A DNA stretch of 64,000 nt from Alloascoidea africana (taxonomy: Eukaryota > Ascomycota > Alloascoideomycetes > Alloascoideales > Alloascoideaceae), in assembly GCA_030581615.1 (NCBI GenBank), contig JAKTTT010000062.1, forward strand, positions 62,001 through 126,000, written 5' to 3'. Each line of letters opens with the position of its first letter. The stretch's first letter is position 1. The notes under the pieces were generated by a model. The model ran no database searches and was not told the DNA's origin. It saw only the letters and a list, made by a program, of their open reading frames with translations. Shown piece after piece: positions 41,024-48,583 of the stretch. Made by a program: the position numbers and the translations under genes.

Positions 41024-42811
41024 CTACCTAATCGTGCTAACTATTGTTTCTTTATTCTCCACAGAAAACCCTTTTGCGCGGACTTTTGCCGGTTCACAAA
41101 GTTTCCAAAACTTTAGACAATCATCCGTAGCGAGAGTTGCAAGAGTCGTTTCATCCGGTGAAAGACTTGAGTGAAGTATACGGTTGTCATGAGCTGGGAC
41201 TTCGAAAGTCTTGGTCAAGGAGGCGTAATCCCATATTACAAGTTTGTTATCAGGGTATCCATGTGTCGAAATTAGCTCTTTGTATTGCTTATTCCAATGA
41301 AGTGAAGTGACCTGGGAATCAGTCTCCAGCGAATTTACTCTGGAGCCAGTTGTAGAATTCCAGAAATGAATTGTTTTGTCTCTTGATCCACCACCAGTTG
41401 CTAGTAGATTGACTTTCCATGGACACCAAGCCATGGCTTTCACAGCAGATGAGTGATTTGTCTTGGTGAATTGGGGAGTTGTAGTGTCTCTATAATCCCA
41501 AATGTTGACAAGATTGTCATTTCCTCCACTTGCCAACTGACTCCCATCTGCTCTCCATTGCAAACCACAAATCTCAGATTGATGGTTGCACATTTGTGAC
41601 ACCTTGTGTTCTGCTATTCGCACATCATTGTTCCATATAATACCGTCTCTTGAACCAGTTGTCAAGATATGTTGGTTCCACGTCAGAACCCCAACTCTTG
41701 TAGGATTTACGCGCATTTTTCTCAGCATTTTAACTTTTTCAACATCCCAGATCATCACATTTCCATCTGAAGTGCCTATAGAGAGATAATGACCTTCCTG
41801 TGACCACTTTAAGGAGGAAAGGTAGCCATGGGGCTCTCCATACTCCATCAACATAAAAACCTGCCCAGTTTCAGCATCCCAGATGTAAACACTGCTTTCA
41901 AGAGCAATAGCTACTTTATTCCCAGAAGACCAGTCCAGCAAATAGAGATAATAATCATCAAGGAGACCCGGTGCATCCAAAACTATATCTGGAGAGCGGG
42001 ATATTCTTCTCCTTTGTCTACCTGAGACTCTACTACCACCACCAATCAAAAGGTCTTTATTGTATAGCGTTTTGAAGTCTATAGGCCCTTTCGGTTGTGG
42101 TGGTTGAACTTGAAACTCTAGAATTCTTGTACTTTTGAAAAAATCAAATCCACAGGCCTGTGCGATTGTCGCTTTATATCCAAAGTTTGGAGATACTTTT
42201 CTCAATTTTGGCGGTGAGCTGAGAAAACGCGAATCGATAAGACGAGACGAGGGAGAAATAACGTTGAATTGTGTTAGATTCTTGTTTCTGATTTTTCTTG
42301 GGCTTGTAAAGGTCAGTTTCGATATTCCAGAGGTTGTTGAAGCCGGAATATACCGATCTCCATGCAATGTTATTCTATTAGGAGTTTTTCTTAAAGATTT
42401 AACTCTCGGAGATCCTGTACGCCCGGTTGACTTTGTGTTTCCTATATCGGAGCCTCTGTGATGTAGTTTCATTGTGGGTGAGAAGGGTGAGGAAAGGAGA
42501 TCCATAGTACAATTTGGTGAAACATTGTTGTCCCAATCATCAGTCACCACATCAAATCTAATTGGAGTTTGTGTTAATGCTAGTGTACTAGCACTATTAT
42601 GATGTTGTTGTTGGACAGGGGTTGAAAATGTTGTAGATTCTCTAGTTGTTCCTGAGTTTGGCGTTTGCAACAACAATGACAGCGGCTCTGACACAATTGG
42701 ACTGTATGGTGAGTCATTAACTTTAGATTTGCATTTTGATCTTTTTGTCTGTGACTTAATCGGAGAAGATGAAAGGAATTTGGCAGCATTCATTTTCCAG
42801 ATAATTAGCAC
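41024..42811 (-). CDS. CDC20: APC/C activator Cdc20
   Basis: Cdc20 activates the anaphase-promoting complex and picks its substrates in mitosis. The C-box DRYIP is at 152-156. The propeller entry is RRRISRSPDIVLDAPGLLDD then YYLYLLDWSSGNKVAIAL, nearer to Cdc20 (LDAPG) than to Cdh1 (LDAPEL). WD repeats with ASGGNDNLVNIWD, WCPWKVNLLATGGGSRDKT and TLATLATDDCLKFWK follow. The last residues are Ile-Arg, the IR tail that docks on the APC/C. The N-terminus MLIIWKMNAAKFLSS offers a second start at M7, which fits family alignments better. A Ser/Pro-rich stretch (30-150) has many SP/TP sites for CDK control. No clear KEN box is seen. Product up to 595 aa. Confidence 0.92.
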   Translation of the reverse strand: MLIIWKMNAAKFLSSSPIKSQTKRSKCKSKVNDSPYSPIVSEPLSLLLQTPNSGTTRESTTFSTPVQQQHHNSASTLALTQTPIRFDVVTDDWDNNVSPNCTMDLLSSPFSPTMKLHHRGSDIGNTKSTGRTGSPRVKSLRKTPNRITLHGDRYIPASTTSGISKLTFTSPRKIRNKNLTQFNVISPSSRLIDSRFLSSPPKLRKVSPNFGYKATIAQACGFDFFKSTRILEFQVQPPQPKGPIDFKTLYNKDLLIGGGSRVSGRQRRRISRSPDIVLDAPGLLDDYYLYLLDWSSGNKVAIALESSVYIWDAETGQVFMLMEYGEPHGYLSSLKWSQEGHYLSIGTSDGNVMIWDVEKVKMLRKMRVNPTRVGVLTWNQHILTTGSRDGIIWNNDVRIAEHKVSQMCNHQSEICGLQWRADGSQLASGGNDNLVNIWDYRDTTTPQFTKTNHSSAVKAMAWCPWKVNLLATGGGSRDKTIHFWNSTTGSRVNSLETDSQVTSLHWNKQYKELISTHGYPDNKLVIWDYASLTKTFEVPAHDNRILHSSLSPDETTLATLATDDCLKFWKLCEPAKVRAKGFSVENKETIVSTIR

Positions 42812-43616: not shown

Positions 43617-45941
43617 TTAAAGAAGTCTTTGGAAATGCGGAAGCTTTGCATTCAGATTTGCGAGTCGAGGATACTCATCTCCTCCAATGCCAGTCCCTAA
43701 AGTTGACGGCGGGCTTTCTGGACTTAGACTTTCCGAATTGGAATAGCTTTTCTCACTAGAAGGCTGTCGGGATCGCCACTGTTCATGCGCGCCAGGAAGA
43801 ACTGGAGAAGGTCCTGAGGTGAGAAGTCTCGAATTGGACAAACTTCTAGAGGTGTCTGAACTTGTATTTGAGATTGCGTAACGGTTTAAATCAGATGAAA
43901 CAGAAACCGCTGGAGCTTCAAAGACTGAGGGTACATGTTGGTGGTGATGGTGTACAACCGATGGGAAAAACAACTCCAACTCCACTTTATCACCGTTGAA
44001 TAAAACTTCTAGATGGCTGTCTGAGTAAATGACCTCATCTTTAATCACATCTTTAAGCCGTAATATTTTGGAGTCTCCCAAAATGTGGAAAGCAGTTTTC
44101 CCATTCTCTATCAGTTCCTGCATAGTTGGCGGGGTCGAGTTCAACGGAGCATAGGTAAAATGAAGAACCTGTGACATAAACTTTAGCGTTACAGGCTTGA
44201 TGACCGATATAGGAGTAGTACCAGCAGTTGGTGGAGTCACTTCTTTATTTTTCCCAGCTGTAGATTCCTGAGCTGACAACTGTGCTAATTTGCTTGGAGG
44301 GTATTCCTCATTCATAATCTCGCGAAAGACATCTGATAATGCAAAGACCACATTATCAAAACCAAAATCTATGATGAAAGATCCAACAAGGGATTTGAGA
44401 TAGTTTGCCATGAGCTTATTATTTGGTTCAGTGGACGAGTCTACTGGAAGCAACTCCAGATTTGTTGCAATTTGCGCTAACGAGTTGTCTGAAACAAGCT
44501 TCCCTCGTATTATTTCAATTGAAAAAGGTGCCAACTTGGTGAAATACCGCGCCATGACAAAGGCAACAGTGGCACTTATAGCGGCATCTCCTAGGAATTC
44601 CATATTTTCAGATACCAAGTTGTCCGAGCTAGAACAAGTGCGTGATCTTTTAAGAAAAGAAAGCAGCTTCTGCTTTGATGTCTGGATGCGAGTGCCAGAT
44701 CCATCAATCGTCAAAGCTGAAATTGACAGCAGGGGATTTGCCGGAGGTGGGTAAGAAGAGGAAGCGCTTTTGCTGTTCACCAAAGATCTAATGGGTACCC
44801 GATTATTTCTTAGAGATTTGTCTGCAGCTCCTCCTGCGGTATCTCCGGCTGAGGAATTATCTGAAAGCCTTGAGTGAGTATAATTAATTTTGCTTCTTCG
44901 ACGCTTCTGAGGGATGGATATATCAGACAAAGTTTCATCAGCAGAGAGCTTGGCTTCACTACCGTTATTGTCCGAAGTATAAACAACAAACCTATGCTGT
45001 TTTTTCTCGGGCCGCCGTGTAGATGTCGAAGTAGCGGTTCGGGCAATAGTGGGTGGTGGGTCTTCCATCTCAACATCATTATCCACGTCCTGCTGTTCAA
45101 GACTATCCTGTATAGCTGGCAGTTGGCCCTTTGGCTTTTTCTGTCCTGAAACACCACCATTTCCACCAGATTTTGAACTAGTACTCTCGCTTTTACCTTT
45201 CTGTTTCTCTTTAGGAGTGCCTTCCGATGATCCCTTGTTCTTGCTAAGCCGCTTTCTATTTCGCCTTGCGGATTGAATAGCAGCTTTTACCAGTTTGTCA
45301 AAATCGTCCAGCGTATTCTCCGGATAGCCGAATTCGATCCTTAGAGTGTTTGCAACATTATTGATTTCCTCGTCTTGCTCACTTGCTTTCTTGGAAGACA
45401 AAGACATGGCATCGATAAGTTCCAATCTCCGTGCAGAGAACTTTTTCCATTGAGAGTCGTTTGTAAAGTTCAATTTGGTCCTGATTGCTTGAGTGAAGCC
45501 TATGGATGATTTTTTATCTTTTGTACCAGTGGACTTGGAACCTGAAGCTGATTCACCCTTTTTACTACCGGCTCTGGCTGATGATCTATTACCCTGAACT
45601 TCATTGGACTCGTCATTTGACTCGTTCTCATCTTCACTTTGATCGATATCACTTGTATACAACTCATGGACAGTACCATTCAAGGTATGGAAAGGAGTTG
45701 GAGAGGCTGTTCTGGCTTCTCTTCCTCCTAAAGTGGGTTTAAGACCGGAGTTGGAAGGAGATATACTTTTGTGTAGAAGCACAGACGAAGCGCGATCCAG
45801 CCTAGAAACCGTGGTGGTCTTGTTATTTGCAGCCGAGGCAAGCAGAAGGATTGAAGAAGCAGCTTGGTTTTCAAGAGTGGTGCTTGGCAAAGCATTCTCT
45901 GGCGGAGGAACTGGAGCAGAGGATGTTCTAGTAACGGACAT
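43617..45941 (-). CDS. VHR1-type transcription factor with an RNase III-like segment
   Basis: A 774-aa protein. Residues about 147-236 are the Vhr1 DNA-binding domain: IGFTQAIRTKLNFTND, W-KKFSARRLELIDAMSLS, KASEQDEEINNVANTLR and IEFGYP, ending with basic ARRNRKR. In S. cerevisiae Vhr1 activates biotin-uptake genes (VHT1, BIO5). Low-complexity Ser/Lys/Glu linkers follow. Residues 444-540 contain SENMEFLGDA and RGKLVSDNSLAQIATNLELL, then KLMANYLKSLVGSFIIDFGF, in the order and spacing of an RNase III domain. The first catalytic pair is kept (E448, D452); the second is replaced (N513, K516). It is therefore probably a non-catalytic RNase III fold. No double-stranded-RNA-binding domain is clear. 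The promoter has Gcn4- and Reb1-type sites. Naming it VHR1 is reasonable for the DNA-binding part only. Confidence 0.85.
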   Translation of the reverse strand: MSVTRTSSAPVPPPENALPSTTLENQAASSILLLASAANNKTTTVSRLDRASSVLLHKSISPSNSGLKPTLGGREARTASPTPFHTLNGTVHELYTSDIDQSEDENESNDESNEVQGNRSSARAGSKKGESASGSKSTGTKDKKSSIGFTQAIRTKLNFTNDSQWKKFSARRLELIDAMSLSSKKASEQDEEINNVANTLRIEFGYPENTLDDFDKLVKAAIQSARRNRKRLSKNKGSSEGTPKEKQKGKSESTSSKSGGNGGVSGQKKPKGQLPAIQDSLEQQDVDNDVEMEDPPPTIARTATSTSTRRPEKKQHRFVVYTSDNNGSEAKLSADETLSDISIPQKRRRSKINYTHSRLSDNSSAGDTAGGAADKSLRNNRVPIRSLVNSKSASSSYPPPANPLLSISALTIDGSGTRIQTSKQKLLSFLKRSRTCSSSDNLVSENMEFLGDAAISATVAFVMARYFTKLAPFSIEIIRGKLVSDNSLAQIATNLELLPVDSSTEPNNKLMANYLKSLVGSFIIDFGFDNVVFALSDVFREIMNEEYPPSKLAQLSAQESTAGKNKEVTPPTAGTTPISVIKPVTLKFMSQVLHFTYAPLNSTPPTMQELIENGKTAFHILGDSKILRLKDVIKDEVIYSDSHLEVLFNGDKVELELFFPSVVHHHHQHVPSVFEAPAVSVSSDLNRYAISNTSSDTSRSLSNSRLLTSGPSPVLPGAHEQWRSRQPSSEKSYSNSESLSPESPPSTLGTGIGGDEYPRLANLNAKLPHFQRLL

Positions 45942-46593: not shown

Positions 46594-46845
46594 CTCTCGT
46601 GTGCAATTTAGTGATGACGGAGTCTGGGGAAATGCGGCCGAATGAGGCTCTCTACATCCGTACACCCTCCAGTGTCCGTTCCGCAAGAAACCGTCCCGGC
46701 GCGGCCGCTGATTGGCTGTCGGAACGCAAGCCCCGAAGTTCGGGGGGTCACCCGGCTGCATTTTCGGTTCCCGTCCGGACCTTTACCCCGGATTTTATTT
46801 TTTCAGCACGAGCTAGAGTCATATAGGTTTGCTACCGGCCCTTGC

Positions 46846-46852
46846 TATAAAA
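46846..46852 (+). promoter_or_regulatory. TATA box of ICL1
   Basis: TATAAAA, 94 bases before the ATG at 46940. It excludes an upstream start at 46829 in the same open frame. Confidence 0.7.
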
Positions 46853-46939
46853 CCCCCCGGCTTTCCCCCGCTCTTTCCAATCTTGTCTTTTCCTTTCCTT
46901 CTCCACAAACCCTTTTCCTTTTTCAATCTCTATTTTAAA

Positions 46940-48583
46940 ATGGCTTACTCTAAAATCAACATCCAGCAGGAACAGCGCGACTTTGAGAAAGAAGTCGCCG
47001 AGGTCAAACAATGGTGGTCCCAGCCAAGATGGAAGCACACCAAGAGAATCTACACTGCCGAGGATATCGTCAGCAAACGTGGATCTCTCAAGATCAACTA
47101 CCCATCTTCTGATCAGGCAAAGAAATTGTTTGCTCTTTTGACCGAACATGACCAGAACAAGACTGCCTCTGCCACCTTTGGTGCTCTTGATCCCATCCAC
47201 GTCTCCCAGATGGCCAAGTACATCGATACCGTCTACATCTCTGGATGGCAATCATCTTCCACTGCCTCTACATCCAACGAGCCTTCCCCAGATTTGGCTG
47301 ACTACCCTTATGACACTGTTCCCAACAAGTGCGAGCAGTTGTGGTTTGCACAGTTGTTCCATGACAGGAAACAGCGTGAGGAGAGACTCAGCCTTTCTCC
47401 CGAGGAACGGTCAAAGCTCAACTACATTGACTTTCTGAGACCAATCATCGCAGATGCCGATACTGGACATGGTGGCATCACCGCCATCATCAAGCTCACC
47501 AAGCTGTTTGTTGAGAGAGGTGCTGCTGGCATTCACATTGAAGACCAGGCCCCAGGTACCAAAAAATGCGGACACATGGCCGGTAAGGTTTTGGTCCCAG
47601 TTCAGGAGCACATCAACAGATTGGTTGCTATCCGTGCCTCTGCTGACATTTTGGGAAGTGATCTCTTGGCAGTTGCCAGAACCGATTCTGAGGCTGCTAC
47701 TCTTCTCACATCCACCATTGACTACAGGGACCACTACTTCGTCATTGGTTCCACCAACCCAGACATTCCCTCCTTGGTTGACGTTATGGTCAAGGCCGAG
47801 AATGACGGTTTGTTTGGCGCTGCTCTCCAAAAGGTTGAGGATGATTGGGTTGCACAGGCTGGGCTCAAGCTCTTCCACGAGGCCGTCATTGACGAAATCA
47901 ACAAAGGATCTTATCCTAACAAGCAGCAGCTTATTGCAGCTGTGCAGAAGGAGTTGACTCCAATTTCCAACAAGTCCAACCAGGAAGCCAGAGCTTTCGC
48001 CAAGTCTTTGTTAGGAAAGGAGATCTTCTTTGACTGGGAGAAACCAAGAGTCCGTGAGGGATACTACAGATACCAGGGTGGTACTCAGTGTGCCGTCAAC
48101 AGAGCCCGAGCCTATGCTCCTTATGCCGATCTAATCTGGATGGAGTCCAAGCTCCCTGACTATGACCAGGCCAAGGAGTTTGCCGAGGGTGTCAAGTCGC
48201 TATACCCTGAGCAGTGGCTCGCTTACAACCTGTCCCCATCTTTCAACTGGACAAAGGCCATGTCTCCTGAGAACCAGGCCACCTACATCCAGCGTTTGGC
48301 TAAGCTCGGATACGTTTGGCAATTCATCACACTTGCTGGTCTGCACACCACTGCTTTGGCTGTTGACAACTTTGCCAAGGGATACAGTGAGATTGGCATG
48401 AAGCACTACGGTGCCACTATCCAGCAGCCTGAGATTGACAACAACGTTGAGGTTGTCAAGCATCAGAAATGGTCTGGCGCTGAGTACATTGATAACTTAC
48501 TCAAGATGGTTACTGGCGGCGTCACAAGTACCGCTGCTATGGGTGCTGGTGTTACTGAGGATCAATTCAAATCCAAGTTGTAA
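46940..48583 (+). CDS. ICL1: isocitrate lyase with a peroxisomal targeting tail
   Basis: Isocitrate lyase splits isocitrate into succinate and glyoxylate, the first glyoxylate-cycle step for growth on acetate, ethanol or fatty acids. The start [19 protein letters not shown] gives 547 residues, in line with fungal enzymes. The signature KKCGHMAGK carries the catalytic Cys. Other landmarks are DADTGHGG and [15 protein letters not shown]. The protein ends SKL, a canonical PTS1 for import into peroxisomes/glyoxysomes, as in alkane-using yeasts. A CTG codon (47504) at the conserved Leu of [10 protein letters not shown] supports the standard code. Codon use is strongly biased to C-ending codons, suggesting high expression. 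The GC-rich promoter probably carries carbon-source control, though I could not fix a site. Confidence 0.97.

Follow-up and report, generated by a model that had tools for sequence, protein, structure and literature searches.

A catalytically degenerate RNase III-type domain and a predicted PB1-like domain in a Vhr1-family transcription factor of Alloascoidea africana

Introduction

An RNase III fold without catalysis occurs in mL44/Mrpl3 of the mitoribosome. The founding paper on Vhr1, a named regulator of the model organism Saccharomyces cerevisiae, is reportedly that of Weider et al. from 2006. Here we analyse a 64,000-nucleotide stretch of the Alloascoidea africana genome (contig JAKTTT010000062.1, positions 62,001 to 126,000; hereafter, the window), which carries a gene of the same family as S. 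cerevisiae VHR1 (YIL056W) and VHR2 (YER064C), with the same DNA-binding domain (PF04001). If the domains described below are as they appear, two of the three folded domains of Vhr1 may have gone unrecognised, and, to our knowledge, an RNase III-derived domain would be found for the first time within a sequence-specific transcription factor.

In the accessible parts of three papers on Vhr1, which deal with DNA binding or paralogue divergence, neither an RNase III part nor a PB1 part is mentioned (PMC3334620, PMC4331311, PMC9000951). In the open-access literature searched, no paper linking Vhr1 with RNase III or PB1 came up, and an unannounced assignment in a database may exist; likewise, the initial annotation of this gene had known of no such description in the Vhr1 family. 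PMC10218792, which contains both 'vhr1' and 'ribonuclease', was set aside as irrelevant, its VHR1 being a phosphatase in the part of the text available, and the text of PMC9648973 and PMC12405880 contained no mention or a table row only.

Compared with budding-yeast Dcr1/Rnt1, the RNase III-type domain of the window protein lacks the full set of catalytic acids and any detected double-stranded RNA (dsRNA)-binding domain, and is joined to a DNA-binding domain. It resembles mL44/Mrpl3 (PF22935) in being a predicted non-catalytic RNase III, and PF22935 weakly matches 11 of the 77 aligned family members; however, no dsRNA-binding domain was found in the window protein, and the Vhr1 profile matches the mL44-like gene L005 of the same genome at no better than E 3. 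Residues 581-661 share the beta-grasp fold of PB1 domains (NBR1, Par6/aPKC, MEKK), but without sequence-profile support, and ubiquitin-like folds match them too. We put a probability of roughly 0.55 on the reading that Vhr1 of the sampled budding yeasts outside Lipomycetaceae consists of a Vhr1 DNA-binding domain, a catalytically dead RNase III domain and a C-terminal PB1-like domain with predicted disordered joins, the RNase III part being derived from Rnt1/Dcr1 and most probably serving as a homodimer module.

Results

The window gene and the two domains on which the comparison centres are the following.

43617..45941, minus strand: Vhr1-family transcription factor gene, an uninterrupted open reading frame (ORF) from ATG to TAA, 774 amino acids (with stop).
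45240..45506, minus strand: Vhr1 DNA-binding domain, residues 146-234, helical (Pfam PF04001, 8.3e-41; AlphaFold2 helices 149-233, predicted local distance difference test (pLDDT) mostly >90).
44256..44702, minus strand: RNase III-type domain lacking the catalytic set, residues 414-562 (helices 415-561), from Pfam and NCBIfam matches, profile searches, AlphaFold2 and fold comparison.

Homologues were taken from 7996 scored candidates, with 88 among the matches listed, and the aligned set comprised 77 members including the window protein; further homologue listings gave 90, and 205 with at least 120 listed, only part of the listed proteins being aligned. It is very nearly certain, from sequence matches and a predicted fold, that the window protein and the family alignment contain an RNase III-type domain. 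A search of the PDB sequences with the 77-member profile gave 35 matches, every one of them a chain of RNase III, Drosha, Dicer, Dcr1 or mL44, the strongest at 9.2e-7, including 6zdw, which is labelled 'DRBM domain-containing protein' and bears a ribonuclease core title. With a domain-only profile of 16 members including the window protein, 35 of 39 matches were RNase III-type, as were all of the top 28. When the 77 members were scanned singly (E<=1), PF00636 (12/77), PF22935 (11/77) and PF14622 (5/77) were the commonest families after Vhr1, and TIGR02191 matched 10/77. The window protein alone matched PF00636 at 5.2e-4, PF14622 at 5.3e-4 and the mL44 model PF22935 at 0.011, and NCBIfam TIGR02191 (ribonuclease III) over residues 433-549 at E 1.2e-8, its 34.8 bits lying below the equivalog cut-off of 166.25. 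A scan of the whole genome with PF00636 placed this locus sixth of seven (E 0.0016, below cut-off).

The AlphaFold2 model, computed with the 77 sequences as input, contains three confident regions (helices 149-233, helices 415-561 and a strand-rich unit at 582-658); the chain is of low confidence outside them, and 404 of the 774 residues have a pLDDT <50. The predicted fold of the second region matches the RNase III helical fold. The degenerate RNase III domain proposed in the initial annotation is thus backed by sequence matches and by the predicted fold, the latter through the comparison with RNase III structures that it had suggested. Computation establishes how the domains are laid out, that the second has an RNase III fold and that this domain is conserved between species.

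The signature, the second catalytic pair and the family motif of this domain lie at the following sites.

44586..44609, minus strand: RNase III signature remnant ENMEFLGD, residues 445-452 (positions E37, E40 and D44, Aquifex numbering).
44394..44405, minus strand: place of the second pair of catalytic residues, with N513 and K516 replacing Asp and Glu (canonical in 1/77 and 0/77).
44355..44369, minus strand: family motif DFGFD, residues 525-529 (G527 77/77, F528 73/77, D525 63/77).

The motif SENMEFLGDA at 444-453, the segments RGKLVSDNSLAQIA and MANYLKSLVGSFIIDFGF that follow it, and A512-N513-x2-K516 all occur in the window protein where they had originally been placed, with the first Glu/Asp residues (E445, E448, D452) kept and the second pair replaced. 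The window protein agrees with the signature E-R-L-E-F-L-G-D at 6/8 positions. Across the family the signature is degenerate, only L450 (63/77) and G451 (76/77) being well kept, and the conserved residues are structural ones, namely G451 together with G527, F528 and D525 of the DFGFD motif, which presumably occupies the place of the RNase III 'YLDxGxE' motif. A canonical acid stands at the positions of E445, E448, D452, N513 and K516 in 20, 45, 4, 1 and 0 of the 77 members, respectively; acid positions were assigned by MAFFT columns, and the count at position 513 is the least certain because the alignment before it is gappy. Computation on these aligned sequences shows that catalytic acids have been lost across the 77 members, and the loss of the second pair, noted initially for the window protein, is family-wide. 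The window protein lacks the full acid set (E/E, D, D, E) but, with three of the five, is the sole member above two. The reading as an active nuclease whose catalytic site has moved elsewhere, for which the retained E445, E448 and D452 might speak, was discarded on the catalytic acids and is scarcely conceivable, given N513 and K516 at the second pair, a last Glu in none and a last Asp in one of the 77, and no other member with three acids.

In a search in the reverse direction, 421 ORFs taken from the window and from six RNase III loci were compared with a profile built on 75 members, leaving out the window protein and P0001. This profile recovered the window protein at 6.4e-38 and matched four Rnt1/Dcr1-type proteins (L002, L003, L008, L004), all with a Rnt1-type N-terminal domain and dsRNA-binding motifs, at 3.6e-7 to 5.2e-5; the next match had E 0.46. 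The best E on these four proteins among 40 column-shuffled profiles was 0.12, and reversed rows gave 0.042 at best.

Some observations weigh against the RNase III assignment. The single-sequence scores for PF00636 (21.2 bits, cut-off 27), PF22935 (16.2 bits, cut-off 27) and PF14622 all lie below the curated cut-offs. Among the 40 shuffled profiles, one came as low as E 3.5e-4 on an ORF, so that a single E near 1e-4 is inconclusive alone, while the joint result is conclusive. Clades were assigned from similarity, together with a small number of named rows; on that basis, a 13-member Saccharomycetaceae-like profile found no RNase III, its sole match being mL77 at E 1.2 over profile positions 94-157, outside the RNase III part, and a 22-member CUG-clade-like profile gave 6/6 matches to RNase III chains, yet at E 0.09 to 0.83. 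In these clades the case therefore rests on structure and on how diverse the full alignment is. The cut-offs, the Saccharomycetaceae-like profile and the one shuffled profile are what would favour a non-homologous helical bundle with a short chance look-alike motif, an explanation that was discarded on the reverse search and the shuffle and reversal controls; it is already largely refuted and very improbable.

Several other RNase III genes were noted in the same genome. L004 (634 amino acids, G000:C6:123890-124126) and L008 (639 amino acids, G000:C97:40960-41133) are paralogues with a Rnt1-type N-terminal domain and dsRNA-binding motifs, whose signatures are degenerate (LVFFGRSLLS and LVFLGESLLN, respectively); they look like dead Dcr1/Rnt1 paralogues, judging from sequence. 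ERLEFLGD is intact in L002 and L003. Two diverged genes, L005 (G000:C79:61084-61461) and L006 (G000:C2:450018-450380), encode RNase III and dsRNA-binding parts and appear mL44-like by eye and by weak model matches: PF22935 is weak in both, and the MRPL44 dsRNA-binding domain model is weak in L005 and without a match in L006.

A third folded domain, absent from the initial annotation, follows the RNase III part.

43959..44201, minus strand: PB1-like beta-grasp domain, residues 581-661, from predicted fold.

Residues 581-661 are, on the predicted structure, a PB1-like beta-grasp domain, and the S. pastorianus equivalent shares the beta-grasp fold as well. The PB1 sequence model matched one of the 77 members (E 0.12), and a profile of the segment had no matches among PDB sequences. 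In the Vhr2-type proteins P0143, P0146 and P0163, the RNase III segment is retained and the PB1-like segment is absent.

The RNase III-type segment was aligned (MAFFT) in 76 of the 88 listed homologues, those outside Lipomycetaceae, with two near-invariant glycines; in strongly diverged members of the 76, among them P0002, P0029 and P0042, it is known from the alignment only. The segment is thus shared by most of these Vhr1/Vhr2 homologues, and it also aligns in the three Vhr2-type proteins. The initial annotation was right about the RNase III domain and understated its reach: the segment is present in relatives and not special to the window gene, and the signature motif is present there too, the near-canonical window form being the exception. 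The 12 proteins of the early-branching Lipomycetaceae gave no RNase III match, and their profile matched six antibody light chains and no RNase III; they carry a serine-rich stretch between the DNA-binding domain and a C-terminal conserved part. By eye, conserved stretches flanking the DNA-binding domain of Lipomycetaceae Vhr1, e.g., P0074 at ~88-165 and 528-625, seem PB1-/ubiquitin-like. In a tree of the DNA-binding domain (37 rows, without P0018), the window protein groups with P0001, and 7/34 inner branches are well supported. Since the tree leaves the order unsettled, gain after the branching of Lipomycetaceae and loss within Lipomycetaceae both stand.

Discussion

The molecular function of the RNase III and PB1-like domains is a reasoned guess; for the former, the initial annotation had put forward dimerisation or RNA/DNA binding as possible roles. 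RNase III domains dimerise via a hydrophobic ball-and-socket contact, as described in the accessible parts of PMC8708148 and PMC3991619. The domain with which Vhr1 and Vhr2 bind to overlapping TGAC half-sites is not bZIP, the class that pairs by a leucine zipper (PMC3334620, text available in part); a dead RNase III domain could supply the pairing. It would form a homodimer that pairs two DNA-binding domains on two-half-site TGAC-type Vhr1 targets, and the PB1-like domain would recruit a regulator. By analogy with RNase III, we rate the role of dimerisation module at slightly below even odds. In the by-position comparison the 'ball' position is hydrophobic in 59/77 members. One 'socket' position, 464, speaks the other way, as it is Glu in 63/77 and the canonical socket is not retained there. 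Glu at position 464 despite a hydrophobic ball suggests a changed contact or docking free of a dimer, so that a platform for a coactivator, sensor or chromatin factor, without dimerisation, is a real rival. The conserved polar pair E464-R465 (R or K in 61/77), S474 (45/77), Y477 (49/77) and the DFGFD loop, residues judged by conservation, would suit partners, and mL44 is a cut-dead RNase III scaffold in the mitoribosome. The hydrophobic ball and, as far as the accessible text goes, the two half-sites of Vhr1 targets count against such docking, which we regard as possible but doubtful.

Binding of double-stranded RNA or DNA by the domain, which would make Vhr1 an RNA-responsive regulator, is improbable. 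The matched RNase III fold would allow it, and binding and cleavage are separable in the rnc70 mutant of E. coli RNase III (PMC8708148, in the part available); however, scanning the window protein with Pfam revealed no dsRNA-binding domain, a PB1-like domain follows instead, and the catalytic acids are replaced variably, without one conserved basic set.

As to origin, the within-genome profile matches favour the Rnt1/Dcr1 type; an mL44 origin was set aside as less likely, given E 3 for L005, although PF22935 matches 11/77 members. The domain probably descends from an enzyme of the Rnt1/Dcr1 type that gave up cutting and persisted as a protein-protein module. We tentatively entertain, as a rather unlikely history, that a budding-yeast ancestor captured such a domain into a transcription factor after the Lipomycetaceae split, that the enzymatically dead domain became the regulatory core of the Vhr proteins, and that in S. 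cerevisiae the response to biotin passes through an RNase III dimer put to new use, whose PB1 arm was later lost in Vhr2. If two of the three folded domains of Vhr1 have indeed been overlooked, this would offer a direct experimental way into nutrient sensing by Vhr1 and its assembly on DNA, and the RNase III part would be a clear instance of an enzyme domain converted to a regulatory module. The absence of the PB1-like part from Vhr2-type proteins would give an explanation, open to testing, of why the Vhr1/Vhr2 paralogues diverged asymmetrically, as described in the accessible part of PMC9000951.

With respect to the gene itself, its ORF, strand, coordinates and length had been read correctly from the start, and the Vhr1 domain, first placed at 147-236, scores 138.6 bits against PF04001 (curated cut-off 25). 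It holds the PF04001 match in the A. africana genome (23.2 Mb), no second one being found there. P0001 (709 residues) matches the protein over its full length with 49% identity. A wrong genetic code was discarded, as CTG read as Leu agrees with the family alignment, e.g., at residue 217, which is Leu in 77/77. The neighbouring genes appear by eye to encode a Cdc20/Cdh1-like WD40 protein (41024-42811, minus strand) and an isocitrate lyase (46829-48583, plus strand).
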